Source: Runella sp. MFBS21
Lineage (GTDB): Bacteria; Bacteroidota; Bacteroidia; Cytophagales; Spirosomataceae
NCBI RefSeq assembly: GCF_029433105.1
Contig: NZ_JARNTW010000017.1
Coordinates: 1-64,000 of the forward strand
Reading direction: 5' to 3'
Length of the DNA: 64,000 nucleotides
Below, one piece after another: positions 15,158-31,876 of the stretch (the first letter of the stretch is position 1; each line of letters opens with the position of its first letter). The translations under genes were made by a program, and so were the position numbers. Below the pieces are notes generated by a model. The model was given only the letters and a program-made list of their open reading frames with translations, did no database searches and had not been told where the DNA came from.

Positions 15158-18022
15158 TTAGTACCATCCTCTACGTTTGATGTTGGTATTCATACCGCGC
15201 ATATTGTAGGTAAAGCTAAGCATGTAGTAGCGAGCCAATGTTTGGATACGTTCTTGTGATACGTAGTTTTGGTTGGCAAACTGATTTACTCCCAAGTTAC
15301 GATTGAAAGCGTCGTATAGCGATAGTCTGATTTCTGCTTTTTTAGATTTTCCCAAAACCTTATAAATCGAAGAATTCAAAACAGGTACTTGCTGGTTAAA
15401 CCCAAATCGGTCGTTGGTGTAAATTTGGTAATTGAAATTGGAGTTGATATAAAAATCTTTGGGCAAACGAATATTCATCGTACCTCCATAGGTCTGGGTC
15501 ACAATCTTCTGATTTTGTGTGGTATTGATTGAGTACTTAGTGTTGCCTATGCTCCAGTTGGCATTGGGATAAAACGTAAACACATCGCTTGGTGTAAGAT
15601 CAAGACGCACCCCAAAACGGAGGCTATTGGTATTGGTCTCATTCATAATGCCATTGATAGGCGTTAAGTTTTTGCTGATGCCCGGACTAGCATTGAAGTT
15701 GATAGTCGCTTTGGTTTTTTTCAGAGGAAAGCCAAAACCAATGTAAGAACCCAAATTTTGACCACCTGAAATGTTAACAGGTTTGGTGACAGTAATCAGT
15801 GTATTAGGGTCAACTTGTTGATTATAAATAATTTGATTGATATTGTAAGTGTAATAAAGGTTCACATTTAGGCTTGTAAAACTAGCGGGGTTAAACATAT
15901 TATACCCCATGCTGATACCATGTGATAGCGACGGCAATAAATCAGGATTACCTTGACGAATCACGAGCGGGTTGCTATTGTCGATGATGGGCTGTAGGTC
16001 TCTTGTATTGGGTTGATTGACATTCACATTGTATCCTGACCAGAAATAACGGTTGTTTTTGAGGTCATAGCTAAAGGAGGCATTGGGGATTACCGTTGTG
16101 TAGTTTCGTTTTACATTGATAAAAGTATTGGGTTCTTGCCCAAGGCCAAATTTACCGTCGATTTGGAAAGTCTGAACCGCCAAGCCACCTGAGAAATTCA
16201 ACCCTTTGTACGAATAACGAATACTGCTACCAAGTCGAGCGTAGTTATAATTGTTTTTATAATAACTACTGAGGCTATCTACTGGAATGCGTCGTCCATT
16301 TTCTTTGGCCAAATCAAATACATTACGATCTACAAAATCAGAACGATGACTTAAATTGACGAAGGTTTCGGAAAAGAAACGCTTACCTATAGGCTCAACA
16401 AATAGTAGGCTTGTTTTAAACAAATTGACACGGCTACCAGTGTTGTTGGTAAGATCCAGTAATTGTCTAATAACGTCGTTGGGATTGGTAGCATTGTAAA
16501 ATAAATTGAGTGAATTTTGGTCAGCTACCCCGTCGTTGTTAGTAAAATTATAGGAAGCACTTGCGGCAAAACTCCGGCCTTTTTTCTTGAATTTATGACG
16601 ATACAGAAGGGTATTTGCCGTCTCGATTTTGTCTACCAAAGTAGAATTGTTGATGGTACTTTCGTTCGATTTAAAATTGTTACTTCTCAAATATTCCGTA
16701 AAGCTACTCAAACGCGTATTACCAGCATTTAATCTACTATTGTTGCTGAAAATCAAAGTGTTGAGAGAGTCGATGGTTTGCTCGTGTCTAAAAGACAATC
16801 GGTGGTTACCTACAAAATTCACTTGATTGCTTTCTTCATTGGTTTGGAATGAACCATTCTGGAGGAAGTTTTCGCGGGTACGTAAGGCATCAAATACTTG
16901 GCGATTGGAGTTGTAATAATAACTAGCGTTGGTCTTGATTTTTTTGGTGTTACGGTTGTAGTTAATCCCCGCTGCGATGTTGTTGGAGTAGCCGCGGTTT
17001 AGTCCACCGCCTACTGGAATACTCAAGCCGCCGTCGTCGTCGCCGCCGATAGAAATATAATATCCTCCGCCTCCGCCACCAAATCCAAAGTCGCCGTTGT
17101 CGTTCCATTGATTAAAAGAACCACTTCCTCTAAAATCTTGATAATCATCCCACGACATCCCTGTTTGGTTGGTGTTGTTGGTAAGGCCGATGATTGAAAA
17201 CTGATTTTTGTCGTCAAATTTGTTATAGTTTCCTTTGATTTCGCCGCGAGGGTTGGCGCTATTGTTACCGTCGAGTCCCACACCGGCTGTTACTTTTCCA
17301 AAACCACCTTTTTTAAAGCTGTCTTTCAGTTGAAGGTTTACGGTTTTTTCCTGCTTTCCGTCATCTACTCCCGTTACTTTTGATTGTTCGGTTTTATCAT
17401 TGAAAATCTGGACTTTATTGATGGCTTCGGCAGGCAGGTTTTTGGTTGCCATTTTTGGGTCATCTCCAAAAAAACGTTTTCCATCTACGGTTACTTTTTG
17501 GACTTGTTGCCCCTGAGCGATGATATTGCCGTTTTGGTCGATTTGCACACCGGGTAGTTTACGAAGTAGGTCTTCGACCGTTGACCCTGGGGGTACTTTA
17601 AAAGAAGCAGGATTGTACTCGATGGTATCGCCTTTGATACTCATCGGGGCGCGAGCGGTTTTGATTACTACCTCAAAAAGCTCTTTGGTGATAGGCTTGA
17701 GTCTAAGCGTGCCCAAATCAATGAGTTCTTTATCACCAAAAACAATGTCTTTTTCAAGTGGAATAAATCCTACGTAGGTGATTTTGAGGAGATAGTCTCC
17801 TTTTTTGATATTGCGAAAAGAAAATGCCCCTTTTTCGTTGGTACGAGAAAAGTTGACAAGTGAGGAATCTTTTCGTTGTAGAAGCATTACCGTGGCTGAG
17901 CCTAATGGATTGGCTACTGTATCGGTAGTCATACCTTGAATCTGAAAACGACTGGGAGTGGTTTGGGCATACAATGCACTCAGGCATGGCCACAAGAATG
18001 CCAGGAGGAGAATTTTTCGCAT
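15158..18022 (-). CDS. Outer-membrane beta-barrel TonB-dependent receptor-like protein
   Basis: 954 residues: a signal peptide ending YAQ (about 20), a carboxypeptidase-regulatory-like domain (about 25-110), then a plug domain (about 130-220, including STVEDLLRKLPGVQID and VTVDGKRFFGDDPKMATKNLPA). An OMP_b-brl_3-type barrel (PF14905-like) follows to the C-terminus. It probably moves a peptide or metal-related ligand across the outer membrane, powered by TonB, but the ligand is unknown. A Gly-rich segment (about 300-340) is likely an extracellular loop or linker. A good promoter lies at 18094-18124, and the GLPGLI gene follows. Confidence 0.88.
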   Translation of the reverse strand: MRKILLLAFLWPCLSALYAQTTPSRFQIQGMTTDTVANPLGSATVMLLQRKDSSLVNFSRTNEKGAFSFRNIKKGDYLLKITYVGFIPLEKDIVFGDKELIDLGTLRLKPITKELFEVVIKTARAPMSIKGDTIEYNPASFKVPPGSTVEDLLRKLPGVQIDQNGNIIAQGQQVQKVTVDGKRFFGDDPKMATKNLPAEAINKVQIFNDKTEQSKVTGVDDGKQEKTVNLQLKDSFKKGGFGKVTAGVGLDGNNSANPRGEIKGNYNKFDDKNQFSIIGLTNNTNQTGMSWDDYQDFRGSGSFNQWNDNGDFGFGGGGGGYYISIGGDDDGGLSIPVGGGLNRGYSNNIAAGINYNRNTKKIKTNASYYYNSNRQVFDALRTRENFLQNGSFQTNEESNQVNFVGNHRLSFRHEQTIDSLNTLIFSNNSRLNAGNTRLSSFTEYLRSNNFKSNESTINNSTLVDKIETANTLLYRHKFKKKGRSFAASASYNFTNNDGVADQNSLNLFYNATNPNDVIRQLLDLTNNTGSRVNLFKTSLLFVEPIGKRFFSETFVNLSHRSDFVDRNVFDLAKENGRRIPVDSLSSYYKNNYNYARLGSSIRYSYKGLNFSGGLAVQTFQIDGKFGLGQEPNTFINVKRNYTTVIPNASFSYDLKNNRYFWSGYNVNVNQPNTRDLQPIIDNSNPLVIRQGNPDLLPSLSHGISMGYNMFNPASFTSLNVNLYYTYNINQIIYNQQVDPNTLITVTKPVNISGGQNLGSYIGFGFPLKKTKATINFNASPGISKNLTPINGIMNETNTNSLRFGVRLDLTPSDVFTFYPNANWSIGNTKYSINTTQNQKIVTQTYGGTMNIRLPKDFYINSNFNYQIYTNDRFGFNQQVPVLNSSIYKVLGKSKKAEIRLSLYDAFNRNLGVNQFANQNYVSQERIQTLARYYMLSFTYNMRGMNTNIKRRGWY

Positions 18023-18093
18023 GACTGTTGTTAGAATAGAGGTTTAAGAAAATGTGGTTAGATGGTGTATTTCTCAATACGGCTATTGAATCG

Positions 18094-18124
18094 TAAACGT
18101 ACTAATGATTTAGTTTATTGTCAA
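18094..18124 (-). promoter_or_regulatory. Bacteroidota-type promoter of the TonB receptor gene
   Basis: On the minus strand TTG (18124-18122) is followed after exactly 20 nt by TACGTTTA (18101-18094). This matches the -33/-7 pattern TTTG and TAnnTTTG in all but the last base. Transcription would begin about 65 nt before the ATG at 18022. Confidence 0.5.
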
Positions 18125-18231
18125 GAAATATTAAAAATATATTTAAGAATGTTAGATATATAGAAATTTATAAGTAAGGAATGCTGCGGATATATACTTT
18201 ATGATTATGAAAAGGTTACAGCTAAAAACAA

Positions 18232-18262
18232 AAAAAGAGCCAATTTGTGGTTGGCTCTTTTT
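18232..18262 (-). terminator. Intrinsic terminator of the rpsL-rpsG operon
   Basis: AAAAAGAGCCAA (18232-18243) and its exact complement (18251-18262) form a 12-bp stem with a 7-nt loop. On the minus strand it is followed by a T-run, 24 nt after the rpsG stop codon. Confidence 0.8.
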
Positions 18263-18285
18263 GAATGATATAAAATCGCTTGAAA

Positions 18286-18753
18286 TTAGAAGCGGAAGTG
18301 CGAAAACGCCTTGTTGGCTTCGGCCATACGGTGGGTATCGTCTTTTTTCTTTACAGAAGCACCTTCACCTTTTGACGCAGCAACGATTTCAGCAGCTAGA
18401 CGGTCACGCATGGTTTTTTCACCGCGCAAACGAGCATACTTAATCATCCATTTCATACCTAAAGCTACCTTACGATCAGGACGAACTTCGGTAGGAACTT
18501 GGAAGTTAGCTCCCCCCACACGGCGGCTTTTTACTTCTACGGCAGGCATTACGTTGTTCAATGCGCGGCGCCAGATTTCGAGGCCATTTTCGTTGAGGCG
18601 TTTTTCGGCAATTTCCAAAGCACCATAGAAAATATCATAAGCGATGCTTTTTTTGCCTTCCAACATCAAGTTGTTTACAAATTTGGTTACCATTACATCC
18701 CTGTATTTAGGGTCAGGCAATAGGTATCTTTTTTTAGGTTTTGCTTTTCTCAT
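18286..18753 (-). CDS. rpsG: 30S ribosomal protein S7
   Basis: 155 residues, the usual length. Typical S7 features are [34 protein letters not shown], the [18 protein letters not shown] loop that contacts 16S rRNA, and [20 protein letters not shown] at the end. S7 starts assembly of the 30S head. It follows rpsL by 137 nt on the same strand and is itself followed by a strong terminator rather than by fusA. Confidence 0.98.
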
Positions 18754-18890
18754 TGTACTGAGTTGTTAATCAATGGAGGTTTCGTTTTGTTCAGCTTTAT
18801 CGCTGATTTTAACTGATTCATCCCGAACTAACTTCGGAATTACTACCCTTTTATGCTATTGTACTGTCTTACGCAAACAAAAAGGACGGA

Positions 18891-19319
18891 TTACTTCTTC
18901 TTACCTGGAGCTGGTTTACCACCTTTTCCTACAGGTGCTGCTTGACCTGGTTTCGGACGTTTTGCACCGTAAAGTGAGCGGCTTTGTTTACGACCGTTTA
19001 CACCGGCTGTATCAAGCGCACCACGAACTACGTGATAACGCACCCCTGGAAGGTCTTTCACACGACCACCACGCACCAATACGATTGAGTGCTCTTGGAG
19101 GTTGTGGCCTTCACCTGGAATGTAAGCGTTGACTTCCTTCATATTTGATAAACGTACACGCGCTACTTTGCGCAAAGCCGAGTTTGGCTTCTTCGGGGTC
19201 GTGGTGTATACACGCGTACATACACCGCGGCGTTGTGGGCAAGAATCTAAAGCCGGAGACTTAGATTTCCACGTCATTTGTTCACGTCCTTTGCGTACTA
19301 ACTGTGAAATAGTTGGCAT
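18891..19319 (-). CDS. rpsL: 30S ribosomal protein S12
   Basis: 142 residues, longer than the E. coli protein (124) because of a C-terminal tail rich in Gly, Pro and Lys (about 123-142), common in Bacteroidota. The decoding-centre loops are intact: [12 protein letters not shown] with Lys43-Lys44, and [13 protein letters not shown] with Lys88. No streptomycin-resistance substitution is seen at these lysines. It is the first gene of the rpsL-rpsG unit, with a near-consensus promoter at 19373-19403. Confidence 0.98.
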
Positions 19320-19372
19320 TATATATTACTGATTATGAGAAAAATGGATATACCACCCCAAAAATGGGAGTG

Positions 19373-19403
19373 CAAAATTAGGGTCTTTCTTTGAAAAGAC
19401 CAA
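19373..19403 (-). promoter_or_regulatory. rpsL: Promoter of rpsL-rpsG
   Basis: On the minus strand TTG (19403-19401) is followed after 20 nt by TAATTTTG (19380-19373), a perfect TAnnTTTG element. The spacer itself holds a 7-bp hairpin, GGTCTTT with AAAGACC (19382-19401). The leader to the ATG at 19319 is about 50 nt. Confidence 0.6.
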
Positions 19404-19440
19404 GTGATAGACGATAAATTTGAAGATTAAATGATTGGGT

Positions 19441-19466
19441 GCTAGCTTTTTTAGCGTAAAGCTAGC
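19441..19466. terminator. Hairpin overlapping the ruvA stop codon
   Basis: GCTAGCTTT (19441-19449) pairs with AAAGCTAGC (19458-19466); the loop contains the ruvA stop codon (19451-19453). It probably ends the ruvA transcript, though no long T-run follows on the minus strand. Confidence 0.4.
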
Positions 19467-20041
19467 TTGATAAGCTGCTCCACGGTGATTTGATCGCCTT
19501 CACGTTTGAGAATTGTGTCAACGCTTTTCTCGGCGGTAGGTTTTGGAATACCCAACATCACCAAAGCGGCAATCGCTTCGTTTCGGATTTGGCTGTTGGC
19601 TCCCAAGAATATGCTAGGCTGAGGAGCCGTGAGCCCTTCTTTTTTGATTTTATCTTTTAAATCTATGATGACTCTTTGGGCTGTTTTACTACCAATTCCT
19701 TTGATAGTCTGAATAAGGCGGACATCTTCTCCGACAATAGCTTGTTTGATTTCGGGAGCCGACAACGAAGAAAGCATAATAAGTGCCGTAGCCGAGCCTA
19801 CCCCTGATACACTGATAAGATCTAGAAAAAGATTTTTTTCGGTAAGTTCTGCAAATCCATACAAAACATGAGCATCTTCCCTGATTTGTTGGTAAGTCAA
19901 TATTTTACACACTTCACCAAGGTTAGGCAATGCACTGTAGGTTTGTAAAGAAATTTTTACTTCATAGCCCACTCCTCCTACATCCATGATAAGATATGCG
20001 GGATCTTTGTGGGCAAGTTTACCGTTTAGATAAGCTATCAT
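19451..20041 (-). CDS. ruvA: Holliday junction branch migration protein RuvA
   Basis: 196 residues, normal for RuvA. The N-terminal OB domain starts MIAYLNGKLAHKDPAYLIMDVGGVGYEV. The double helix-hairpin-helix region contains LISVSGVGSATALIMLS and TIKGIGSKTAQRVIIDLKDK, which bind the junction. The C-terminal domain III (about 148-196), which contacts RuvB, follows a short linker. RuvB and RuvC are not nearby. A 15-bp hairpin lies 14 nt before the start codon, between ruvA and the upstream gene. Confidence 0.97.
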   Translation of the reverse strand: MIAYLNGKLAHKDPAYLIMDVGGVGYEVKISLQTYSALPNLGEVCKILTYQQIREDAHVLYGFAELTEKNLFLDLISVSGVGSATALIMLSSLSAPEIKQAIVGEDVRLIQTIKGIGSKTAQRVIIDLKDKIKKEGLTAPQPSIFLGANSQIRNEAIAALVMLGIPKPTAEKSVDTILKREGDQITVEQLIKLALR

Positions 20042-20055
20042 ATATTGTTGAGGAG

Positions 20056-20092
20056 ATTAGCTCTTTGGTAATTTTTGTACCAAAGAGCTAAT
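20056..20092. terminator. 15-bp hairpin between the Dabb gene and ruvA
   Basis: Perfect 15-bp arms 20056-20070 and 20078-20092 enclose the loop ATTTTTG. It begins 1 nt after the upstream stop codon and ends 14 nt before the ruvA ATG. No T-run follows on the minus strand, so it may end the upstream transcript or affect ruvA translation. Confidence 0.5.
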
Positions 20093-20093
20093 A

Positions 20094-20468
20094 TTATTTT
20101 TGTGTCCAATAATCAACCACCAATACCTTGTCGAGGTAGGGACCCAGCACTTTGCCAAATGCTTTGTGGTCAGGGTGAGGTAGATATATGGCGCGGTCTT
20201 CTTCAGAATTGAAAGTCAAAAAGAAACAATGCGTAAATCCTTGGGCGAGGCCTTCGGGGCTATTGTTGGTGCCCCACTCAAAGCCTTTGATTTGTTTGAT
20301 TTGGGTAGGGAGCTTTCTAAAAGCATCCTCTACTTGTTTTACTTGGGCTGGGGTAGTATTGTCTTTAAACTTAAACAATACTACGTGTCGTAGTACTTTG
20401 TCGTTTTTTTGGGCCATAGCGCCAAAGGCAAAAAAGGTTAGAAAAAGGGCTAAGAGTTTGATTTTCAT
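20094..20468 (-). CDS. Exported Dabb (stress-responsive A/B barrel) protein
   Basis: From Met 20468 it has 124 residues with a signal peptide (MKIKLLALFL to AMAQ). The ferredoxin-like Dabb domain (PF07876) begins LRHVVLFKFKDNT and continues with VEDAFRKLP, IKGFEWGTNNSPEGLAQGFTH, the YLPHPDHKAF block and LVVDYWTQK. A longer in-frame start at 20555 would run through the end of the neighbouring gene and bury the signal peptide, so it is rejected. Dabb dimers are often seen in stress and catabolic proteins; the exact role is unknown. Confidence 0.82.
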   Translation of the reverse strand: MKIKLLALFLTFFAFGAMAQKNDKVLRHVVLFKFKDNTTPAQVKQVEDAFRKLPTQIKQIKGFEWGTNNSPEGLAQGFTHCFFLTFNSEEDRAIYLPHPDHKAFGKVLGPYLDKVLVVDYWTQK

Positions 20469-20520
20469 GTAAGTGAAATTAATACATAAGAAAAAAATTG
20501 ATTGAGATGCTGCCACAAAA

Positions 20521-20721
20521 CTAGCCTGAGCAGTTGATACATTCGCCACTTTCATCTCTTACGCTACGTTCAAAATCACCGAGTTGTTCTTTCAATTCCA
20601 AGATTTCGTCTTCAATTTCGCAGCGTTCAAAGAGGGAAAGCTCGCCAGAGGCTATTTCTTTTTCAAGGGTTTTGAGTTTCACGCGCATTTCTGAAACTTC
20701 CATTAATGTTAAAGTTGCCAT
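20521..20721 (-). CDS. Small helical protein with C-terminal CxxC
   Basis: 66 residues, mostly a charged heptad-like helix (VSEMRVKLKTLEKEIASG to ILELKEQLGDFERSV) ending in ECINCSG. Composition and codon use look like a genuine gene and the ATG is 75 nt downstream of the preceding lipoprotein gene. The Cys pair could bind a metal or be redox active. No named family is recognised. Confidence 0.6.
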   Translation of the reverse strand: MATLTLMEVSEMRVKLKTLEKEIASGELSLFERCEIEDEILELKEQLGDFERSVRDESGECINCSG

Positions 20722-20796
20722 GAGATATTTTGGGAGTAAATTATGAAATTATGGTTTTGTGTTAATGCGAAAGTTACTAAAAAAGTTCGGAAAAAT

Positions 20797-21666
20797 TTAT
20801 TGAATTACGGAGTTGTTGTACCACCATTCGTCATTTTCCCAGTAGTTTTCCCACCCTAAATGACGATACTTTTTATTGATTTCAACTTCTCGTTCGCCAA
20901 TCGAAAATTCGGTCAAAATTTGATTTGCAAAAGCAAACAAATCTTTGGCCCATACCACAGGCTTGGTGAGATTTTGCTGATAGCTTCGCCACGTACCCTC
21001 AAATTTGAAACCACTAGCTTGGGCAGGTGCATTTGGCGAAAAATACCATAATTCTGTATTTCCGTCCTTTTTTTCAAAGAAGTCAATCAACATTTTGCCC
21101 GAAAATAGGCCCGACGCCTTGGTGCTTGGTTCTTCTTTTAGCTCAAAAGTAGCTTCGGCAGTGTAGGCTTCTTTAAGGTCAAACCCACCTTCGTCGTAAT
21201 GCTCCTCCTTAAGATTAGGGTCTTTGAAGGTACTGAGATTGTGAAACGTAAGCGTGCCTTCAAAGGGGATAATATTGTTTTTAAAGCGATTTTTGCCAGA
21301 CACGTGATAAACATGAGGCTGTAAAGAATCTTTTTTGAAGTTTGAAAAATAAAATTCAATACGATGATAATCATTGCCATAAAAACCATCAAAGCGATTG
21401 GCATATCCTCCCTCGGGGGTAGCATCAAAAAATAATCCACTTAGGTCATGATTGCTGAAAAAAGCCGCTCTTTTGTCGTCCGACAATCTTTGTATTTTAA
21501 GCGCTTTGAGGGGGGCAGTGGTATCACGCCGAAGAGAGTCTATGGCTTCTTTGTGCGTAATGAGCTTAAGCGGAACGGCGGTAGGTTTGGTATTTTCTTT
21601 AGCTTGGCGAGCGCAAGCATACCAAAGCAAACTAACGGCTAACATCCCTAAGGCAATTTTTTTCAT
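20797..21666 (-). CDS. Hypothetical lipoprotein
   Basis: 289 residues. The N-terminus MKKIALGMLAVSLLWYACAR looks like a lipoprotein signal with Cys18. The mature part has a SDLSGLFFDATPEGGYA-like region, many aromatic and charged residues and an extended-strand pattern (EFYFSNF, HVYHVSG, GTLTFHNL, EATFELKEE), suggesting a beta-rich envelope protein. No family is recognised. Its start is 11 nt after the DUF2306 gene, so it is probably co-transcribed with the ATPase/HNH/DUF2306 genes. Confidence 0.72.
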   Translation of the reverse strand: MKKIALGMLAVSLLWYACARQAKENTKPTAVPLKLITHKEAIDSLRRDTTAPLKALKIQRLSDDKRAAFFSNHDLSGLFFDATPEGGYANRFDGFYGNDYHRIEFYFSNFKKDSLQPHVYHVSGKNRFKNNIIPFEGTLTFHNLSTFKDPNLKEEHYDEGGFDLKEAYTAEATFELKEEPSTKASGLFSGKMLIDFFEKKDGNTELWYFSPNAPAQASGFKFEGTWRSYQQNLTKPVVWAKDLFAFANQILTEFSIGEREVEINKKYRHLGWENYWENDEWWYNNSVIQ

Positions 21667-21677
21667 CGACGCACTAT

Positions 21678-22328
21678 TTATCTAGCTTTTTGCAGGATTT
21701 TTTTTGCTAAATCATTATATATCAAAATCTCTACTATCATCAAATTGATCACCCAAGAGGCCCAGGTGACTGTGAGGTAAGTTTCGATAGGTTTGGTATA
21801 AAAAAAATAGACCATTCCAAAACTTCCTATGCGCAAACTCATGGCAGCCAGAGTGACGGCGTAGCTTCGCATCATCCATTCAACGTGCTTTTGCCAGTGT
21901 TGCTTTACAATTTCGCGCCATGCGACCCAAGTGATAAGCCACCATACGACACATTGAAGCGAAAAGCCTACTTTGGCAGGAAGGCCTCCGTTGGCATAGT
22001 ATCCTAAAACCAAACCTGAGGGTGCGGCCAAAATCAATATCGAAAATACATAAATTTTTCCAAGGAGGCGATGCCCGTTGGAATATTTTTTAAGAAATAG
22101 CGGAACAAATTGAAATATTCCTATAGTCATTACCCATGCACTGCTCAGTATATGTACGTAAAAGGCTGTGGTAAAGCTTTTTTTGCTTAAGACAGCATTG
22201 GTTTTTGTTGTTAAAAATCCAATTTCTGATTCGAAGCTAAGGTAAGGTATTATTTTGGTAAACATAAGCAGCGTAAATGCCGCTACTGAAAATAGGAAAA
22301 GAATATATATGAGGGGTGTCGTACGCAT
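21678..22328 (-). CDS. DUF2306 family membrane protein
   Basis: 216 residues from Met 22328, with about six membrane segments. The DUF2306 pattern is seen in FYVHILSSAWVMTIGIFQF, NGHRLLGKIYVFSILILAAPSGLVLG and the HVEWMMRSYAVTLAAMSLR block, which carries conserved His and Arg residues like those of cytochrome b561/ferric-reductase-like proteins. The ATG shares its A with the upstream stop codon (TAATG), which indicates translational coupling to the HNH-like gene. An ATG 27 nt further upstream would overlap that gene and is less likely. Function unknown. Confidence 0.8.
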   Translation of the reverse strand: MRTTPLIYILFLFSVAAFTLLMFTKIIPYLSFESEIGFLTTKTNAVLSKKSFTTAFYVHILSSAWVMTIGIFQFVPLFLKKYSNGHRLLGKIYVFSILILAAPSGLVLGYYANGGLPAKVGFSLQCVVWWLITWVAWREIVKQHWQKHVEWMMRSYAVTLAAMSLRIGSFGMVYFFYTKPIETYLTVTWASWVINLMIVEILIYNDLAKKILQKAR

Positions 22329-22990
22329 TAACTTTCTTGCATTTTTTGCCGACACATTTCCAGAGCAGTAAAAAATTGGTGATTCACTGCGGATTCATGT
22401 TCCCAATTGCCTAGCCCACTTTGTATTTTTTCGATGATTCTACGTAAATGATTTTTACGACTTTTTACTACCCACGACAAATTAATTCCAAGCACCACCA
22501 GCATATCGTTAATCCGTTGTTGAAGTATTTCATCTAATTCGGTATTTGCAATAAAAACGTGCAATTGATTGTCGTACTCCAAAAGCTTAAAAGGGTCGTA
22601 GTCGCTCAAATCGGGTTTTAGGATATAATCTACAGCTTTCTCTCTTTTATGTTTATCATTGATGTCTTTCGAAACCATAAAAAAATTACTCCATAGCCAG
22701 CCTTGTGTTGGTTTTAAATTAGGGTCAAAATGGTCTAAAGCACCGCTAAATTCTGGTTTTTGGGAACAATATTTTCCATTGTCCCAAAGCTCAAATTGAT
22801 AATATTCATCATCACATAAACTAATTTCACTATAAGCACATACTCCTTTTTGGCAATGAAATAAGTTCATAACTACATCATAATAGTATTTGCCATTCGA
22901 AGAATTATAGAAGGGATGATTGTCGTAGAAACCTTCCTCCCAATTTTTATAAGCTGTGGAAAAGATTTGTGTTTTATCAATTTTCTGCAT
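22328..22990 (-). CDS. HNH-like protein of a Septu-type (PtuB-like) pair
   Basis: 220 residues. The arrangement matches the HNH proteins paired with AAA ATPases in Septu and related systems (TIGR02646-like): GVCAYSE (50-55, Cys51), then ALDHFDP (84-90, His87), the W-rich segment WLWSNFF (98-104), and KDINDKHKR (108-116). After these comes ILKPDLSDYDPFKLLEYD (123-140), in the place of the usual 'DP..ddP' segment. In typical members the first motif is CxxC and a second CxxC sits before the Asn; here Ser54 and no later Cys pair are seen, so the zinc site looks lost. It overlaps the ATPase gene by 14 nt and is coupled to the DUF2306 gene. The family call is inference from motif order. Confidence 0.65.
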   Translation of the reverse strand: MQKIDKTQIFSTAYKNWEEGFYDNHPFYNSSNGKYYYDVVMNLFHCQKGVCAYSEISLCDDEYYQFELWDNGKYCSQKPEFSGALDHFDPNLKPTQGWLWSNFFMVSKDINDKHKREKAVDYILKPDLSDYDPFKLLEYDNQLHVFIANTELDEILQQRINDMLVVLGINLSWVVKSRKNHLRRIIEKIQSGLGNWEHESAVNHQFFTALEMCRQKMQES

Positions 22991-24245
22991 CGTATTCCCA
23001 ATCTAATAAATTCGCCAATTTTTCAAATTGGGCTTGCAGCTTTTGTTTTTCTTCCATCGAAAGCTGACCGTTGTCTTTGTGAAGTTTGCTACGTAATGTT
23101 GCCAACTCCATCAATTTACGCGTACGTGCCTCGTTACTGTCATTATCTAAATCAAATATCCGAGTCAAAATAGAATCCCAACGAAGATAGCGAGGGTCTA
23201 TGGTATAATTGTCAACGTGATTTTCTTTTTGTGAGTCATAGTATAGCTCTCTGTACACACTGCCATCGGGTTTAAATTTGAGTTCGACGATTTCCCAAGG
23301 TTCAAAACAAGAAGCAATCAAAGGAGAGTGCGTAGCAAAAAAGAATTGACAATCGGTGGATAAGCTTGTATAAAAATCTATGATTTTAGTCTGAATATCA
23401 GGGTAGAGAGACCGTTCTGGTTCGTCAAATAGAATTATCGTTTTTGTAGGCTTTGAAGCATACAAGGGAAGTGTTGTTAAAATAATCTGTTTGGTACCAG
23501 TGCTCAATAAATTGTTTGGAACTTCTTTTCCCTCGATTGTCTCAATTTTAATAGTTTTTATATCTTCTGTCTTTTTAAAATCTAAGCTTTGTTTCACTCT
23601 CAAATAAAATTGAGAAAGAAGTTTATCTAAGTAGTTGTCTGCTAAATCTTTGAGAGGGTTTGGTCGGCTTTTTTGCCATTCGTTAAATTTATCCAGTTCG
23701 GTCTGAAGTAGTTCTTGATTAGTAGTAACCAATTCCGCTATTTCTAATTTTTTCTGAATTTCTTGTTCTCTAAAAACAATTATATCTTTTATTATATCTT
23801 GCCAATACTGTAAATTTTCTCCTAAATCTTTGTCACCTGTATGAGCGTCAATGATTATAGGTAAGGAATACCGTGATTGTGAGTATTCAGCTCCATTCTT
23901 ATAAACTAAGTAACCATTGTCAAATAAAGTAAACCGAATGTCATTGTCGCTATTTACATATTTTATAAAACTTAAATTTTTATTATTAAAATCCAAGGGA
24001 GTAGTAATCTGATTATTGTTAAACAAATCAGATTTGGTAGTAGGGTCTGAATAATATTTTTTTTCAGCTGGCTTGGGCTTGGCAAGCTTATTTAACAAAC
24101 TCGTTTTCCCTGTGCCGCTTTGGCCGATAATACAGACTTTATCCAGCGGTTTCCCTGCTTTGGGGTGCCCCGCTGGATAAGTTAAGTCCAATTCAAAGTC
24201 TTTAAATTGGTGATAGTCTTTTATGTAAATATGAGAAACTTTCAT
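22977..24245 (-). CDS. AAA (RecF/SMC-like) ATPase of a Septu-type (PtuA-like) pair
   Basis: 422 residues. Walker A GQSGTGKTS lies at 41-49 after the RecF-like opening MKVSHIYIKDYHQFKDFELD. A helical insert (about 150-225) precedes a signature-like STGTKQ (248-253), Walker B TIILFDEPE (269-277) and a switch His306 in FFFATHSPLIAS. No TOPRIM domain follows, so this is not an OLD nuclease. The C-terminal tail (about 350-422) includes ILTRIFDLDNDSNEARTR, as in PtuA-like ATPases. The gene starts one base after the trpB stop and overlaps the HNH-like gene. By eye it is more A+T rich than trpB, suggesting recent arrival. Confidence 0.75.
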   Translation of the reverse strand: MKVSHIYIKDYHQFKDFELDLTYPAGHPKAGKPLDKVCIIGQSGTGKTSLLNKLAKPKPAEKKYYSDPTTKSDLFNNNQITTPLDFNNKNLSFIKYVNSDNDIRFTLFDNGYLVYKNGAEYSQSRYSLPIIIDAHTGDKDLGENLQYWQDIIKDIIVFREQEIQKKLEIAELVTTNQELLQTELDKFNEWQKSRPNPLKDLADNYLDKLLSQFYLRVKQSLDFKKTEDIKTIKIETIEGKEVPNNLLSTGTKQIILTTLPLYASKPTKTIILFDEPERSLYPDIQTKIIDFYTSLSTDCQFFFATHSPLIASCFEPWEIVELKFKPDGSVYRELYYDSQKENHVDNYTIDPRYLRWDSILTRIFDLDNDSNEARTRKLMELATLRSKLHKDNGQLSMEEKQKLQAQFEKLANLLDWEYDAEN

Positions 24246-24246
24246 T

Positions 24247-25440
24247 TTACAAATACTTCATATAAGTTGACAAGTCCTTGTCGCCGCGTCCAGAGAGATT
24301 GATGACGACTGTTTCGTCGGAAGTAGCTTTCAAATACGACAAAACCGCCAAGGCATGAGCGCTTTCTAAGGCTGGAATGATTCCTTCTAATTTGGAAAGC
24401 TCCATCGCTGCTTTTACTGATTCATCATCCGTAATGGCATAAAACTGCGCCCGATGCGTATCATGCAAATGTGCGTGAAGTGGCCCGATACCTGGATAGT
24501 CCAAACCCGCAGAAATAGAGTGTGGCTCGACTACTTGCCCGTCTTCGGTTTGCATCAAAATACTTTTGCTACCGTGCAAAACTCCCATTTTTCCAAGAAA
24601 TGTGGTGGCTGCTGACATCCCCGAACTAATTCCATGTCCGCCTGCTTCGGCAGCAATGAGTTTGACGGAAGTATCATCTAAAAAATGAAAAAAAGCACCA
24701 GCGGCATTGGAACCTCCCCCTACACACGCAATGACATAGTTAGGAAGTTCGGAGCCTGTTTTTTCTAGTAATTGCTTTTTGATTTCTTCCGAAATGACCG
24801 ATTGAAAACGCGCCACCATATCGGGATAAGGATGTGGCCCTACTACCGACCCAATGATATAGTGCGTGTCGGTAGGATTGTTGATCCAATGTCGCATGGC
24901 TTCGTTGGTAGCGTCTTTGAGGGTTTGTGAGCCACTCGTAGCGGGGCGTACTTCTGCTCCGAGCATGCGCATACGAGCCACATTAGGCGCTTGACGTTCG
25001 ATGTCAATCGCACCCATATATACGATACATTCCATGCCCATCAACGCACATACAGTGGCTGTTGCCACGCCATGTTGACCGGCTCCCGTTTCGGCCACGA
25101 TTTTGTTTTTACCGAGGCGTTTGGCAAGCAATATCTGACCGATTGTGTTATTTACTTTGTGAGCACCCGTGTGGCAAAGGTCCTCACGCTTAAGGTAGAC
25201 GTTGGTATTGTATTTCTCAGAAAGTCGTTTCGCAAAATATAGCGGCGTAGGGCGGCCTACATAATCGCGCAACAATCCGTGAAATTCTTCCTGAAAATCA
25301 GGCTGTGCGATGATTTGGAGGTAGTTTTCTCGAAGCTCTTCCACGTTAGGATATAGCATTTCGGGAATATATGCCCCTCCAAACTGCCCGTAGTAGCCAC
25401 GGGTATCCACTTGGAAAGGGGAGTTTACTAACGTTGTCAT
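24247..25440 (-). CDS. trpB: Tryptophan synthase beta subunit
   Basis: 397 residues, standard TrpB1. It joins indole and serine to form tryptophan with PLP. Lys95 in [12 protein letters not shown] is the PLP lysine, [10 protein letters not shown] is the phosphate loop, and [10 protein letters not shown] and [13 protein letters not shown] are conserved. It lies 81 nt downstream of trpF. The gene normally next to it, trpA (alpha subunit, makes indole), is absent; the ATPase gene begins in its place. Confidence 0.98.
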
Positions 25441-25521
25441 GGGATGCTCTATTAAATTAGATTCTGAAAAAGTGATAAAACAAAGGTCGATTTTGTGGGC
25501 TGGTGTAACATAAAGAGCGAT

Positions 25522-26163
25522 TTAGGCTTCTACTTCTTCGGCGGCAGGTCTAACCATTTCCATAAGTTGTTTTAGTTTCTCAATGTCTTTGATGGCTGGT
25601 TCTGTCTCAAACTTGCTGTTTACGTCTAAACCAAAAATGGCGTTTTCGAGTTTAGAAACATCTTCAATATTTTCGAGCGATAGCCCACCACTTAAAAAGA
25701 AAGGTTTGTCGTTGTCGTAGCGCTTAAGAACGTCCCAGTTAAACGTAATGCCATTCCCGCCTGGCTGAGTGCCTTTGGCGTCGAAGAGAAAAAAGTCGCA
25801 ATGAGGTTTGTAATTGTTGAGGGTTGCGAAGTTGAAGTTTTCATCTACCGAAAACGCTTTTATGATATTAGCACCACGCATTTTGAGGGTTCGACAAAAG
25901 TCAGGTGTTTCATGACCATGCAGTTGTACAAACTGTAAATCGTATTTCTTGACATTTCTGAGAATAAAGTCGGGATTGGCATTGACAAAAACACCTACTT
26001 TTTTGATAGGTTTTGGTATATTTTTTACAAACTCTTCATCAAGGGCTTCTCCCACAAAACGAGGAGATTTGTCATAAAAAATAAAACCTATAAAATCAGG
26101 TTTCAACTCAAGTAGTTCAGCTAAATTAGCTGTGTCGCGCATTCCACAAACTTTAATCTTCAT
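25522..26163 (-). CDS. trpF: Phosphoribosylanthranilate isomerase
   Basis: 213 residues, TIM barrel. KVCGMRD carries the catalytic Cys, FLFDAKGTQPGGNGITFNW the catalytic Asp and substrate loop, and FFLSGGLSLENI the phosphate site. It converts PRA to CdRP in tryptophan synthesis. A Met one codon upstream (26166) is an equal alternative start. It lies 25 nt after trpC, between trpC and trpB, the usual order. Confidence 0.96.
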   Translation of the reverse strand: MKIKVCGMRDTANLAELLELKPDFIGFIFYDKSPRFVGEALDEEFVKNIPKPIKKVGVFVNANPDFILRNVKKYDLQFVQLHGHETPDFCRTLKMRGANIIKAFSVDENFNFATLNNYKPHCDFFLFDAKGTQPGGNGITFNWDVLKRYDNDKPFFLSGGLSLENIEDVSKLENAIFGLDVNSKFETEPAIKDIEKLKQLMEMVRPAAEEVEA

Positions 26164-26188
26164 CATAGTAGTAGGTACTTTATGGTTG

Positions 26189-26989
26189 TTAGTTGATGCT
26201 CATTTGAAACTCATCGATGAGGTTTTTGAGCGCAAGTCCAGGGTCGTCAGTAGTCATAAACGATTCTCCAATCAAAAACCCTTGGTAGCCAGCAGCTCTG
26301 AGTTTTTGAATAGTTTCGGCATTTTTGAGACCACTTTCTGATATTTTGACGAAATCATTTGGAATAAGTTGCGCTAATTCCAAAGAAGTTTCGATAGAGG
26401 TTACAAAAGTTTTAAGATTTCGATTGTTGACTCCTACCATATCCACAAATTCACATATACTTTGTTCCAATTCTTCTTGGTTGTGGACTTCTAGCAAAAC
26501 CTCTAATCCTAGGCTTTGGGCTTTTTGACCCAAATGCCGAACTTCGGCAGGAGTAAGATTGGCGGCAATGAGCAAAATCACATCGGCCCCTATCGCCTTA
26601 GCTTCCCATAGCTGGTATTCGTCAATCATAAAATCCTTGCGAAGCATAGGAGTGTAAGGATTGGCCGCGCGCGCTTTGGCAAAGTCGTCGAAAGTGCCTC
26701 CAAAAAACGCTGTATCTGTCAAGACCGACAAGCCATTAGCCCCTGCTTCTACGTATCCTTTGGTGACGATTTCGGGCAAAAGACGGTCATTGATAATGCC
26801 TTTGGAAGGTGATTTGCGCTTAAACTCAGAGATAATACCTGATGCGCCTTCCGCTTTAAGGGCATTTTTAAGTGAGATGGTCTGACGCGTGAAAAGAGGA
26901 GCTTGTTCGAGTTGTTCGAGGCTTACTTTAGCTTTGGCCGCTTCTACTTCTGTGCGCTTATGGGCTATTATTTTATCTAAAATATTCAT
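26189..26989 (-). CDS. trpC: Indole-3-glycerol phosphate synthase
   Basis: 266 residues, single-domain IGPS (not fused to TrpF). SEFKRKSPSKG, LRKDFMIDEYQ, DVILLIAANL, LEVHNQEEL, VGVNNRNLKTF and ISESGL are all present, covering the catalytic Lys and Glu residues. The ATG overlaps the stop of the upstream Uma2-family gene (TAATG), so the two are translationally coupled. Confidence 0.97.
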   Translation of the reverse strand: MNILDKIIAHKRTEVEAAKAKVSLEQLEQAPLFTRQTISLKNALKAEGASGIISEFKRKSPSKGIINDRLLPEIVTKGYVEAGANGLSVLTDTAFFGGTFDDFAKARAANPYTPMLRKDFMIDEYQLWEAKAIGADVILLIAANLTPAEVRHLGQKAQSLGLEVLLEVHNQEELEQSICEFVDMVGVNNRNLKTFVTSIETSLELAQLIPNDFVKISESGLKNAETIQKLRAAGYQGFLIGESFMTTDDPGLALKNLIDEFQMSIN

Positions 26990-27597
26990 TAAGGTTCAAA
27001 AATTTTACTGACAGATATTTCAAGGTTTGGAATCACACTGGATCTGATAATGTCGTTTTCTGTATAAGGACGTAAACCTATATATTTCCCTTCATCATTA
27101 AGAACATATACAATGATGACATTGTCGTTAGGTTCGACTAACCAATATTCTTTTACCCCATTTTCTTCATACACTTGAAATTTGTCGCTCATTTCTTTTT
27201 TTGTATTGCCTGGCGATAAAATCTCAACAATCATATCAGGGGCACCTAAGCATCCGCGCTCATCGAGTTTTGTGGGATCGCAAATCACACAAATATCAGG
27301 TTGTACTACTGTATAAATCTGATTGTCTGTGTGCTTGCTTTGTCGCGGGGTAAGTCTGACATCAAAAGGAGCAGCATATACTTCACATAGCTGTCCATCC
27401 AGTAAGAGGCTGATAGGGGTAAATATTCTTCCTGAAATCTTTTGGTGCCGTCGGGCAGGAGCAGGCGACATATTGAAAATTTTCCCCTTGATGAGTTCAA
27501 TGCGCTCATCGAAGGTCCATTTCAAATAGTCGGCATAAGTATAGATACCGCTTGGATTTAAATCTTTTATACTTAGTACTCCCATATCAATCTTCAA
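26989..27597 (-). CDS. Uma2 family (DUF820) putative endonuclease
   Basis: 202 residues of the Uma2 family (PF05685), a PD-(D/E)xK nuclease fold. Seen: ERIELIKGKIFNMSPAP near 31-47, VVQPDICVI with Asp101, DMIVEILSPGNTKKEMSDK with Glu125 and Lys139 as candidate metal and catalytic residues, and YEENGVKEYWLVEP. The family is widespread and often multicopy, with little known function. It overlaps trpD by 11 nt upstream and trpC by 1 nt downstream, so it is embedded in the tryptophan operon. Confidence 0.88.
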   Translation of the reverse strand: MKIDMGVLSIKDLNPSGIYTYADYLKWTFDERIELIKGKIFNMSPAPARRHQKISGRIFTPISLLLDGQLCEVYAAPFDVRLTPRQSKHTDNQIYTVVQPDICVICDPTKLDERGCLGAPDMIVEILSPGNTKKEMSDKFQVYEENGVKEYWLVEPNDNVIIVYVLNDEGKYIGLRPYTENDIIRSSVIPNLEISVSKIFEP

Positions 27598-28576
27598 TTA
27601 GTTTTTTGAAACAAGCCAGTGCTTTTTTGCTTTCTAATGATTCGCGGGCAGTGGCAATGGCATCCGACAACGACAGAGAGGGGTTAGCAGCATAAATAGC
27701 TAAACCAGCATTGGCCAATACTGCCTGTTTTTGGGCAGGAGTGGCTTCGTCTTGAAGTACATTTAAGAAAATATCAGCTGATTCTTTGAGGCTACTCCCT
27801 CCCGATAATTCGCTAGGCGCAAGAATGTCTAAGCCGAGATGAAGCGGCGAAAGAATTTGCTCGCTTTGAGCTGTAGTTATTTTAAAATCACCCGTCAAAG
27901 ACACTTCATCATAACCGTCTAAAGCGTGAACAATCACATAATAATGCTTGGATTGCTGGTAAAGATAGGCATAAAGTCTGGCTAATTCAAGGCTAAATAC
28001 TCCGACCAACTGTTTTTTGGGAAAACAAGGATTGGTAATAGGGCCTAACATATTGAAAAATGTTTTGATGCCTAATTCTTTCCGAATAGGTGCTACGTAT
28101 TTCATCGCAGGATGAAAAAGTGGCGCGTGTAGATAGCAGATATTTGCAGTTTCGATTTTTCGAGTGAGATAATCTACATCGTTTGAAAACTTAATCCCCA
28201 AATACTCAAGAACAGTAGAAGAGCCTACCAAACTCGATACGCCGTGATTGCCGTGTTTGGCAATACGCTGGCCCGTGCCGGCTACCACAAAAGCCGAAAG
28301 CGTGGAAATATTGAAAGTGTCTTTGCCGTCACCGCCCGTGCCGCATACGTCCATGGGGTCAAAAGCCGAAAAATCAAGGGGAAGGCACAACTCCAACATC
28401 GCATCCCGAAATCCTCTTAGTTCTTCTACGGTAATTCCTCTAATGGCAAAAATGGTAAGAAAGCTCGCTGTTTGAGACGGGTTAAATTCGCCTCTTCCTA
28501 TGCCGAGCAAGGTTTGATAGGCCGTTTGGTGGTCGATGGTTTGGTAATTGAGGAGATGATTGAGCGTAGCCTTCAT
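27587..28576 (-). CDS. trpD: Anthranilate phosphoribosyltransferase
   Basis: 329 residues from Met 28576 (MKATLNHLL). DVCGTGGDGKDTFNIST is the PRPP-binding signature, AKHGNHGVSSLVGS and RKELGIKTFFNMLGPITNP follow as expected. It transfers phosphoribose to anthranilate. An in-frame ATG at 28594 would add six residues and is less likely. hemC ends 21 nt upstream on the same strand. Confidence 0.97.
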   Translation of the reverse strand: MKATLNHLLNYQTIDHQTAYQTLLGIGRGEFNPSQTASFLTIFAIRGITVEELRGFRDAMLELCLPLDFSAFDPMDVCGTGGDGKDTFNISTLSAFVVAGTGQRIAKHGNHGVSSLVGSSTVLEYLGIKFSNDVDYLTRKIETANICYLHAPLFHPAMKYVAPIRKELGIKTFFNMLGPITNPCFPKKQLVGVFSLELARLYAYLYQQSKHYYVIVHALDGYDEVSLTGDFKITTAQSEQILSPLHLGLDILAPSELSGGSSLKESADIFLNVLQDEATPAQKQAVLANAGLAIYAANPSLSLSDAIATARESLESKKALACFKKLIED

Positions 28577-28597
28577 TGGTGGGGTAAAGGTCAAATA

Positions 28598-29524
28598 TTA
28601 CTGGTTTTGTTTGATTTGGGCTAAAATATCAGCCGCGCCTTGGGCCAAAAGCGCTTCGGCTAGTTGAGTTCCTACGGATTCGCGTTTAGAGCGTGAACCA
28701 TTGAGGGTCTGTTTGAGAAGGGTGTTTCCGTCTAAACTTACCACTCCTCCTGTCATCACTAAGGAGTCGGCTTGTAAAGTAGCTAACCCAAAAACGGGTA
28801 CACTACATCCTCCCTGTAACCGTCGCAGAAAAGCCCTCTCGGCCAAAAGACAGGTTTCGGTATCTGCATGATTGAGCAATGACCTTATTTTATCACGTTT
28901 GGTAGGGTCGAGGGTTTGGCTACATTCAATAGCCACGCTTCCTTGACCTACCGCAGGTGTAAATTCGTCTAAAGAGAGGTGCTCAGCAATCAATTCGTCG
29001 TATTCCATGCGATGAACGCCTGCAAATGCCAACAAAATGGCATCGCATTGGCCTTCGTCTAATTTACGAAGTCGGGTTTGCAGATTGCCGCGCATATCGA
29101 CTGTGCGGATATGGGGATAAAAATGTTTGAGCAAAGCTACTCGTCTCGTAGAAGAAGTTCCTACCGTAAAGCTATCGCCCCCTTTGAGAGAAAGTGAAGT
29201 ATTACGGCTCACCAATACATCATTGACTTGTTCGCGCTCAGTAAAGGCGATTAGATTGAGGTCCTCATCAAGCTCTGATTGTAAATCTTTGGCACTATGA
29301 ACTGCGATATCGATACGGCCATCGCGGAGCTGGTCTTCAAGCTCTTGCGTAAAGACGCCTTTACTACCGATTTTGGACAAAGAACGGTCAAGGATTTGAT
29401 CACCTTTTGTCTCGATGAGTACGATTTCGGTCGGAAGTCCTCCTTTTTGCAATAAATTTTCGACATAATAAGCTTGCCAAAGTGCCAAACGGCTGCCGCG
29501 TGTTCCGATTTTGATAGGAGTCAT
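28598..29524 (-). CDS. hemC: Hydroxymethylbilane synthase (porphobilinogen deaminase)
   Basis: 308 residues. IGTRGSRLALWQ begins domain 1, Asp80 in HSAKDLQ is the catalytic Asp, TSSTRRVALLKH and VDMRGNLQTRL bind substrate, and Cys240 in LQGGCSVPV carries the dipyrromethane cofactor. It belongs to haem/siroheme synthesis, not tryptophan synthesis, yet sits between hldE/rfaE1 and trpD with gaps of about 20-25 nt, as if in the same transcript. No other hem gene is near. Confidence 0.97.
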   Translation of the reverse strand: MTPIKIGTRGSRLALWQAYYVENLLQKGGLPTEIVLIETKGDQILDRSLSKIGSKGVFTQELEDQLRDGRIDIAVHSAKDLQSELDEDLNLIAFTEREQVNDVLVSRNTSLSLKGGDSFTVGTSSTRRVALLKHFYPHIRTVDMRGNLQTRLRKLDEGQCDAILLAFAGVHRMEYDELIAEHLSLDEFTPAVGQGSVAIECSQTLDPTKRDKIRSLLNHADTETCLLAERAFLRRLQGGCSVPVFGLATLQADSLVMTGGVVSLDGNTLLKQTLNGSRSKRESVGTQLAEALLAQGAADILAQIKQNQ

Positions 29525-29549
29525 GGAAAAAATGGGTATAGCTGCTTGA

Positions 29550-30530
29550 TTATTCCAAGCTTTTTTTTGCTTCTGATTTTAGAGTTTCTTTGTTGATGGG
29601 CACTACGCCTACGTGCTCGCATACAAGCCCCCCGCCGAGGTTTGAAAGTTCGGCAACGATATTGGGTGGGAGCTTGAGCGCAAGGGCACACGCGGCAATG
29701 CTGATGACTGTGTCACCCGCACCCGACACATCTGCAATTTCGCGCTCGTGAGCGGCAATACGGTGTTGTTGGTCAGAGAAATCGATATAAACCCCTCTTT
29801 CGGAAAGGGTTACAAAAGCGCCTTTGGCATTTAGTTCGTGGCGTAATTTTTTGACAACCGCTTTGAGTTCCTCTTCTTTTCTTACATCAAAATCTACTTT
29901 CAAGCCCTCTTTAAGTTCTTTAAGATTAGGTTTAAAAAGGGTTACATTTTGATAAGCCAAGAAATTCCGCTTTTTAGGGTCTACTACCGTCGGAATATCG
30001 TGAAGATTGGCATAATCCGTAATTTCTTTGATGACATTGGGACACAACACGCCTTTGTCATAATCCTGAAACAGAACTACATCACAGTTTTTCATCAACT
30101 CCTTCGCTTTGTCGATGAGCTGTGCTTGCTCTTCTAAAGTGATGACTTTATCAGTTTCGGTATCTACTCTGACGACTTGCTGTGAACCCGCAATGATGCG
30201 TTCTTTGATAGTAGTGATACGGTCGGGACTTTGGAGGATGCCGTCGGTTCGCAAGCCTCTTTTAGTTAGTTCTTCCAACAAATTTTGACCTTGGGTATCG
30301 GTACCAATCACCGAACAAATGATAGGCTCAGCCCCTAGCGCATGCACATTCAGAATGACATTGCCAGCGCCGCCCAAACGGTATTCGCGGTGATGTGCTA
30401 CTACCACAGGCACAGGAGCTTCGGGCGAAATTCGTTCTACTTTTCCCCATACATACGCATCCAACATCACATCTCCTACAATCAGTACTCTTAGGTTGGG
30501 GAAAGAGTCAAATATTTGATCAACTGTCAT
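29550..30530 (-). CDS. rfaE1: D-glycero-beta-D-manno-heptose-7-phosphate kinase-like (RfaE1)
   Basis: 326 residues, PfkB/ribokinase fold. VLIVGDVMLDAYVWGKVERISPEAPVPVV is the classic RfaE domain I opening (given here only as a region, about 15-43). RLGGAGNVILN follows, and SGAGDTV near 270 contains the catalytic Asp. It phosphorylates heptose 7-phosphate for LPS core synthesis. The second (adenylyltransferase) domain of HldE is missing, so this is the stand-alone kinase. It starts after a 197-nt intergenic space with two hairpins. Confidence 0.92.
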   Translation of the reverse strand: MTVDQIFDSFPNLRVLIVGDVMLDAYVWGKVERISPEAPVPVVVAHHREYRLGGAGNVILNVHALGAEPIICSVIGTDTQGQNLLEELTKRGLRTDGILQSPDRITTIKERIIAGSQQVVRVDTETDKVITLEEQAQLIDKAKELMKNCDVVLFQDYDKGVLCPNVIKEITDYANLHDIPTVVDPKKRNFLAYQNVTLFKPNLKELKEGLKVDFDVRKEEELKAVVKKLRHELNAKGAFVTLSERGVYIDFSDQQHRIAAHEREIADVSGAGDTVISIAACALALKLPPNIVAELSNLGGGLVCEHVGVVPINKETLKSEAKKSLE

Positions 30531-30673
30531 TTTATAAAAATCAAATTTGATAAATGAATGATTAATGAAGAGGTTTGTGTATTTGGAATAATCTTCTAAA
30601 ACACCCTACTTCAAATAAGGCAGAAGAATCTGCAAAAGGCGATTGCTGCCTATCAATCAAAAATACGAGGTGA

Positions 30674-30701
30674 AAGTAAGTATTTGGGTCGCTACTTACT
30701 T
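30674..30701. terminator. 9-bp hairpin between trpG and rfaE1
   Basis: AAGTAAGTA (30674-30682) pairs with TACTTACTT (30693-30701) around a 10-nt loop. A smaller GCAGA/TCTGC hairpin lies at 30620-30633. They fill the trpG-rfaE1 gap, and could end the trpG transcript or attenuate read-through, but no leader peptide with Trp codons is seen. Confidence 0.4.
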
Positions 30702-30727
30702 CCAACTTTTATGGTAGAAATGTATTT

Positions 30728-31294
30728 TTAAATAGCGAGCCAATTTTGCAACATTTGTTTGCCATGCTCAGTCAATACCGATTCGGGGTGAAACTGCACC
30801 CCTCTTACATCATAAGTATTGTGATGAAGGGCCATTACTTCCCCGTTTTCGTCGACGGCGGTGATAGTCATGGTATCAGGGACGGTCGCACCTACCACCG
30901 TCCATGAGTGGTATCGACCTACTTGAAAAGAGGAAGGAAGCCCCTGAAAAAGAGGCTCAGAAGGGTCTGTGACGATTGCTTTATCGCTAATTCCATGCAA
31001 TACGTCCGACATATTGTTGAGGGTAGCGCCAAAAACTTCTCCAATACCTTGATGCCCTAAACATACTCCCATGATGCTCTTAGTGGGAGCGTATGTTCGA
31101 ATCAAATCCTGCATGATACCTGCTTCGGAAGGAATGCCAGGGCCAGGAGATAGAAGAATTTTATCATACTGAGCTACCTCATCAAGAGATATTTTATCGT
31201 TGCGATGGACTTCTACATCGTCATGCAGCTCTCGTAAAATATAGACTAAATTATAAGTAAAAGAGTCGTAATTGTCAAGGACTAAGATACGCAT
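30728..31294 (-). CDS. trpG: Anthranilate synthase component II (glutamine amidotransferase)
   Basis: 188 residues from Met 31294 (MRILVLDNYDSFTYN). The triad is intact: Cys78 in MGVCLGHQGIG, and His169 and Glu171 in QFHPESV. It supplies ammonia to TrpE. PabA-type proteins are very similar, and the tryptophan genes nearby favour TrpG. The upstream in-frame extension to 31354 lacks family similarity. trpE is not in the window; mgsA lies upstream on the same strand. Confidence 0.92.
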   Translation of the reverse strand: MRILVLDNYDSFTYNLVYILRELHDDVEVHRNDKISLDEVAQYDKILLSPGPGIPSEAGIMQDLIRTYAPTKSIMGVCLGHQGIGEVFGATLNNMSDVLHGISDKAIVTDPSEPLFQGLPSSFQVGRYHSWTVVGATVPDTMTITAVDENGEVMALHHNTYDVRGVQFHPESVLTEHGKQMLQNWLAI

Positions 31295-31378
31295 TGGTGG
31301 ATTAATGAAAAAGTGAGTAGGTAACCAAATATGTTTATTTTCAATTGAAAACACAAAAATACCATTTCCTATCTTACC

Positions 31379-31828: not shown

Positions 31829-31876
31829 TTTGTTAATAGTTTTAGAAAAACTTTTTGATGTCTTTAGGCTACAATT

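Follow-up and report, generated by a model that had tools for sequence, protein, structure and literature searches.

What is a gene pair resembling an anti-phage system doing one base behind trpB, and how did it come to be there? An earlier note on the window (the whole 64,000-nt stretch of Runella sp. MFBS21 DNA analysed here) had described two overlapping minus-strand reading frames as a Septu-like ATPase/HNH pair inside a tryptophan operon. The two frames are present, encode 422 and 220 amino acids and overlap by 14 nt, in the following setting.

25522..31354, minus strand: remaining trp cluster, with trpF, trpC, a Uma2 gene, trpD, hemC, a heptose-7-phosphate kinase gene and trpG
24247..25440, minus strand: trpB, left neighbour of the cassette (TIGR00263, 590.2 bits, above its cut-off)
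24246..24246, minus strand: single base from the trpB stop to the ptuA-like ATG (TAA-A-ATG)
22977..24245, minus strand: ptuA-like gene (open reading frame), encoding a 422-aa SMC/ABC-type AAA ATPase
22977..22990, minus strand: 14-nt overlap of the ptuA-like and ptuB-like genes
22328..22990, minus strand: ptuB-like gene (open reading frame), encoding a 220-aa HNH protein (H87, N102, N111)
22326..22330, minus strand: TAATG, the ptuB-like stop and the probable DUF2306 ATG, with a 1-nt overlap
21678..22328, minus strand: DUF2306 membrane protein gene, right neighbour (PF10067, E 5.6e-32)

The spacing at the three junctions is +1 nt (trpB-ptuA), -14 nt (ptuA-ptuB) and -1 nt (ptuB-DUF2306), and the intergenic gaps of the trp-cluster genes upstream of trpB run from -11 to 197 nt. 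Downstream of the DUF2306 gene come a 289-aa gene without a Pfam match and then more non-trp genes, and the only hit for trpA genome-wide falls on a different contig from the trp cluster and the pair. Placement inside the trp operon holds as far as tight co-directional linkage to trpB goes; the pair itself, however, comes after the last trp gene, at the cluster's 3' end. The 1-nt spacing behind trpB and the overlaps at ptuA-ptuB and ptuB-DUF2306 point to co-transcription with trpB: the trp transcript most probably runs on through the cassette, with translation of the genes coupled where they overlap. An Rfam search of positions 18000-34000 returned no regulatory RNA for the trp region. On the minus strand between 19 and 37 kb, the strict form of a Bacteroidota-type promoter matches at 33245 and 31383, where 0.26 matches are expected from single-base shuffles, and has no match within the ptuAB pair; a looser form also matches at 28649, 26150 and 23027, the last of these inside ptuA. 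An E. coli-type promoter has a 10/12 match directly before ptuA at 24273-24244, in a scan that gave 42 matches against 26.4 in shuffles, and because of such matches directly upstream ptuA may have its own promoter. Farther along, the gap between a Dabb-like gene and ruvA (window 20056-20092) holds a 15-pair stem-loop with T-rich sequence, a possible terminator.

The motifs that had been read by eye in the ATPase are all in place, with Walker A at G41-Q-S-G-T-G-K47-T (G41-T48), a signature-like S248-T-G250-T-K-Q (S248-Q253), Walker B at D274-E275 and the switch histidine at H306. In an alignment of 65 rows (64 of the 74 listed ATPases plus the window), G41, G46, K47, S248, G250, D274, E275 and H306 are invariant. 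PtuA is the best family in a PADLOC profile search (E 1.8e-67, 226.5 bits), and profile, residues and predicted fold agree with the Septu type I PtuA, which as an ATPase carries the Walker A and B motifs, the signature and the switch histidine. The partner's PADLOC matches (11 of 11) are to the HNH_I-A and PtuB1 families only, the retron family HNH_I-A (E 1.5e-11) being narrowly ahead of PtuB1 (E 4.8e-10), and a Pfam search gave no significant family for it. Its predicted fold is that of PtuB, with retron Ec78 PtuB as the best structural match. Invariant in the partner alignment (65 rows, being 64 of the 67 listed partners plus the window; the R. zeae partner L102, which is cut short, is among those omitted) are Q47, C51, Y53, E55, H87, N102 and N111; the rows were picked by the motif C-x-Y-x-E, so that the invariance of C51, Y53 and E55 comes partly from selection, and H87, N102 and N111 are unaffected. 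The PtuB1 profile, the fold and these last three residues agree with a PtuB HNH nuclease that carries a catalytic histidine and asparagine.

Family profiles also retrieved the solved PtuA and PtuB structures, to which identity is low (13-20%), and the NCBIfam cut-offs were missed for both PtuA (NF041760, 33.4 versus 500 bits) and PtuB (NF041761, 31.7 versus 150 bits). We regard the pair as almost certainly a member of the PtuAB family. The same assignment had been made by eye from motif order, and the outcome that would have spoken against it, namely matches to unrelated ATPase profiles only and a small protein without an HNH fold, was looked for and not found: the best profile is PtuA and the partner's fold is that of PtuB.

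The lead of HNH_I-A among the partner's profiles and the structural match to Ec78 PtuB would also suit the effector pair of a retron I-A (Septu type II) that has kept or lost its reverse transcriptase (RT) and RNA. We consider this very improbable, since the scanned neighbouring proteins include no RT, an Rfam search of 18000-34000 gives no retron RNA match with an E value of 1 or lower (searches that cover the neighbourhood only), and the flanks are trpB and DUF2306. Septu type II is the RT-bearing retron form (PMC8565338), and we assign the pair to type I because no RT is among the scanned neighbours and Rfam gave no match; adjacent ptuA and ptuB genes without an RT, here with the 14-nt overlap, are the arrangement of that type. 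Among the 13 neighbours scanned with PADLOC, only the Uma2 gene matches, to candidate family PDC-S03.

A survey of the same junction in related genomes, a check suggested in the earlier note, revealed intact, broken, remnant and empty states across 12 Runella genomes; trpB was located in 12 of 13 and was not found in G002, which is 83% complete. Both genes are intact 3' of trpB in G000 and in G012 (R. aurantiaca YX9). In G008 (R. zeae DSM 19591) ptuA is intact and ptuB is severed between codons 182 and 196, and the ptuB tail with part of DUF2306 is found ~38 kb off on the opposite strand of the same contig, in an inversion-like arrangement. In G009, ~36 ptuA codons remain behind trpB, and the last ~43 ptuB codons precede DUF2306 ~1.95 Mb away on the opposite strand, beside a gene that we take by eye to be lpxA, of which a partial copy is present at the first break. 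The remaining eight genomes run from trpB directly to DUF2306 with no pair. A rearrangement end thus lies inside the pair in two of the four Runella genomes with traces of it (G008, loci L067 and L182; G009, loci L068 and L183), and these breaks may be either chance events in dispensable DNA or a property of the locus.

The pair is, as had been judged by eye, richer in A+T than the trp genes: GC is 0.344 for ptuA and 0.341 for ptuB, whereas the 17 other genes that were measured have values of 0.384-0.494 and the window as a whole has 0.421. Between the window species and R. zeae, dN/dS is 0.12 for ptuA, 0.21 for ptuB (over its first 190 codons) and 0.03-0.13 for six trp-cluster genes, and dS is 0.19, 0.33 and 0.26-0.40, respectively; judged from these sequences, the pair is under purifying selection. 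Identity to G012 is 59% for ptuA, 67% for ptuB, 72% for DUF2306 and 82-90% for the trp-cluster genes.

Outside Runella, 18 loci were compared, from 39 non-Runella genomes with trpB, and a few of these loci end within 1-2 kb of trpB. None has a match to the pair, DUF2306 or the 289-aa gene near trpB, and four of the 18 have a 66-aa gene beside it. Since DUF2306 and the 289-aa gene (window 20797-22328) are absent from the 18 other-genus loci, they appear to be a Runella addition, which suggests that the trpB side has acquired genes more than once. The Uma2-family gene at 26989-27597 (PDC-S03, E 5.6e-54) separates trpD from trpC in each of the 11 Runella loci where this part is visible, and does so in one of the 18 other-genus loci (L089). 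Two Runella genomes also carry a second, divergent ATPase-HNH pair (L085 in G004 and L086 in G008), head-to-head with a 569-aa gene that, by eye, resembles lysS.

We propose that the Runella trpB-DUF2306 junction has two alleles, an empty one that mostly carries a hairpin, and a carrier one with ptuAB and a different DUF2306 5' end. In seven of the eight empty junctions (L062, L063, L064, L065, L066, L069 and L070) the sequence AAGGGTAG...CT(A/G)CCCTT spans the DUF2306 start, and the hairpin arms AAGGGTAG...CTACCCTT cover the start codon; the arms are nearly invariant, and their sole change, in G003, retains a U-G pair. RNA folds of six of these seven junctions have energies of -16.6 to -21.0 kcal/mol, empty G005 lacks the hairpin and takes another fold of -14.0 kcal/mol, and the carriers G000 (-2.9 kcal/mol) and G012 (-10.4 kcal/mol) do not form it, all values being without a shuffle control. 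The hairpin may couple DUF2306 translation to trpB. The carriers have in common an alternative DUF2306 N-terminus (MRT..LI), the first ~11 codons differing between carrier and empty alleles, and when empty G011 is compared with its near relative, the carrier G012, the difference extends from the trpB stop to about DUF2306 codon 11, a stretch of ~48 nt on the empty side.

The idea that the hairpin is a dispersed repeat that guides insertion was rejected, as AGGGTAG-N10-40-CTACCCT occurs just 0-4 times per strand in the 12 Runella genomes. There are 20 occurrences in total, and seven of the reversed pattern; six of the 20 are at the trpB junction, where the one-base variant of G003 is missed by the pattern, and of the rest some are shared by two related genomes.

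The trp-linked ATPases form a single clade (support 100/98), and the 12-gene nucleotide tree sets empty G006 (90.4/84) and empty G003 (100/100) between carrier lineages. An earlier protein tree likewise has G003 between carriers and leaves G006 outside (support 0.574); the conflict of the two species trees on G006 weakens the exact history of the junction, and the branching of G009, G011 and G012 is uncertain, the three possible pairings having 101, 81 and 53 sites. The history that we prefer is a single insertion followed by allele exchange through the flanks: Runella would have acquired the carrier allele, which afterwards spread or disappeared among its members, probably by recombination in the flanks, and we give its spread by such recombination about even odds. 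The chief competing history, strictly vertical descent with an early-Runella insertion at trpB, several losses and no allele exchange, would also account for the single ATPase clade and for the decay in G008 and G009, and agrees with the union of G000/G008 with the G003-G012 group in the protein tree (support 0.574). It is rather unlikely, however, since empty G003 and G011 have the hairpin junction of the distant G001/G004/G007/G010 group with no deletion scars, and the 12-gene tree puts G006 and G003 among carriers.

Is linkage to a biosynthetic operon a trait of the family? From 203 candidate stretches, 99 of which encode a relative, the best 80 of the 99 were kept and make 81 loci with the window. 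Usable ends are present at 75 of these 81 ATPase loci, and in 68 of the 75 an adjacent partner open reading frame has the C-x-Y-x-E motif, which argues that the pair is not a chance association; in L126 and L179 a partner without this motif was found by tblastn. The 14-nt overlap recurs in 21 of the 68 pairs, with start codons chosen by the analyst. With genes called by a simple ORF rule, and four of the 81 loci lacking an upstream gene, the gene upstream of the ATPase (n = 77) is co-directional within 50 nt in 34 cases, at 51-150 nt in 10 and further in 17, and is divergent in 16; the same four classes hold 194, 112, 140 and 118 of the 564 background genes of 150 aa or more from these loci. 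Operon embedding as a family trait was therefore rejected: 34/77 (44%) against 194/564 (34%) is no excess, given that 13 of the 34 closely linked ATPase genes represent one Spirosoma-type site and three the Runella trpB site. The location that had seemed odd is thus still surprising in having trpB as the neighbour, but this is softened by the family control. Where a co-directional gene closely precedes the ATPase gene, it is trpB in three Runella loci only.

The Spirosoma-type PtuAB site is found in Spirosoma and relatives (L154, L157, L159, L161, L164-L169, L172 and L174-L176), where it is flanked by genes identified by eye as GH3-like and dxr; in L157, L159, L161, L167 and L172 the same gap holds what we take, also by eye, to be small toxin-antitoxin-like genes. 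One of these loci, L175, is labelled Flavobacterium sp. SUN052; its content is Spirosomataceae-like, and its dxr-like protein is 90% identical to that of a Cytophagales MAG, so that the organism label may be wrong. Some neighbours of the pair in the family, trpB, alaS and lysS (the latter two by eye), hint at a possible link between the pair and the amino acid that its neighbour serves, but they are a handful beside many unrelated ones.

In this family, the ATPase PtuA joins PtuB in a complex and holds the HNH nuclease under its control. By analogy, the Runella SMC/ABC-type PtuA would assemble with PtuB and upon infection license the PtuB HNH nuclease, which would cut nucleic acid, either host tRNA or DNA, and so stop phage production. 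In Septu EcB88, residues K43 and D316 of PtuA and H75 and N91 of PtuB are required, and tRNA-Tyr is cleaved (PMC13096335); motif order suggests that the Runella partner's catalytic residues are counterparts of H75 and N91. PMC11555353 describes retron-Eco7 PtuAB as toxic and as degrading tRNA-Tyr, and reports other PtuAB as acting on DNA. We put the probability that the pair acts in phage defence at roughly 0.75. A pair that follows a biosynthetic gene, with no other known defence system adjoining, could instead be a tRNA- or stress-linked toxin or a housekeeping module tied to amino-acid supply, and the toxic, tRNA-Tyr-degrading Eco7 pair fits that idea as well. We think this improbable, because the pair is absent at 8 of the 12 Runella junctions and broken in two, and its characterised relatives are defence systems (PMC13096335, PMC11555353 and PMC8565338).

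If the pair does act in defence, the junction offers, in one genus, the cassette intact, broken, as a remnant and absent, joined by a single base to a biosynthetic gene. This is a clean natural comparison for how small defence systems come and go in rows of housekeeping genes without integrases, and for whether location tunes their expression. A long shot is that, through the trp transcript, production of the nuclease follows tryptophan supply, so that amino-acid status would set the level of a defence that may cut tRNA, and that Runella species exchange the two alleles of the trpB-DUF2306 junction, as a defence site, by flank recombination without a mobile element.

Among known systems, PARIS differs in that AriA has AriB beside it: beside the Runella ATPase stands an HNH protein with the PtuB fold, all 11 of whose PADLOC matches are to HNH_I-A or PtuB1, and the ATPase itself scores much higher as PtuA. 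The retron I-A effectors (Ec78/Eco7 and Ec83) differ from the Runella pair in that the latter has no retron RNA or RT nearby and misses the NCBIfam equivalog cut-offs. The pair is 13-15% identical to Septu type I proteins (E. coli PtuAB, PDB 8eea and 8ee4; Septu EcB88), and sits behind trpB, with the Uma2 gene in the trp cluster as the sole defence-type gene among the scanned neighbours; our literature search, of titles and abstract openings, found no report of Septu in this position among the papers listed. Overall, the reading of the pair as a Septu type I-like PtuA-PtuB is well supported; such genes are familiar, and what is unusual is their placement a single base behind trpB and the visible turnover of the junction.
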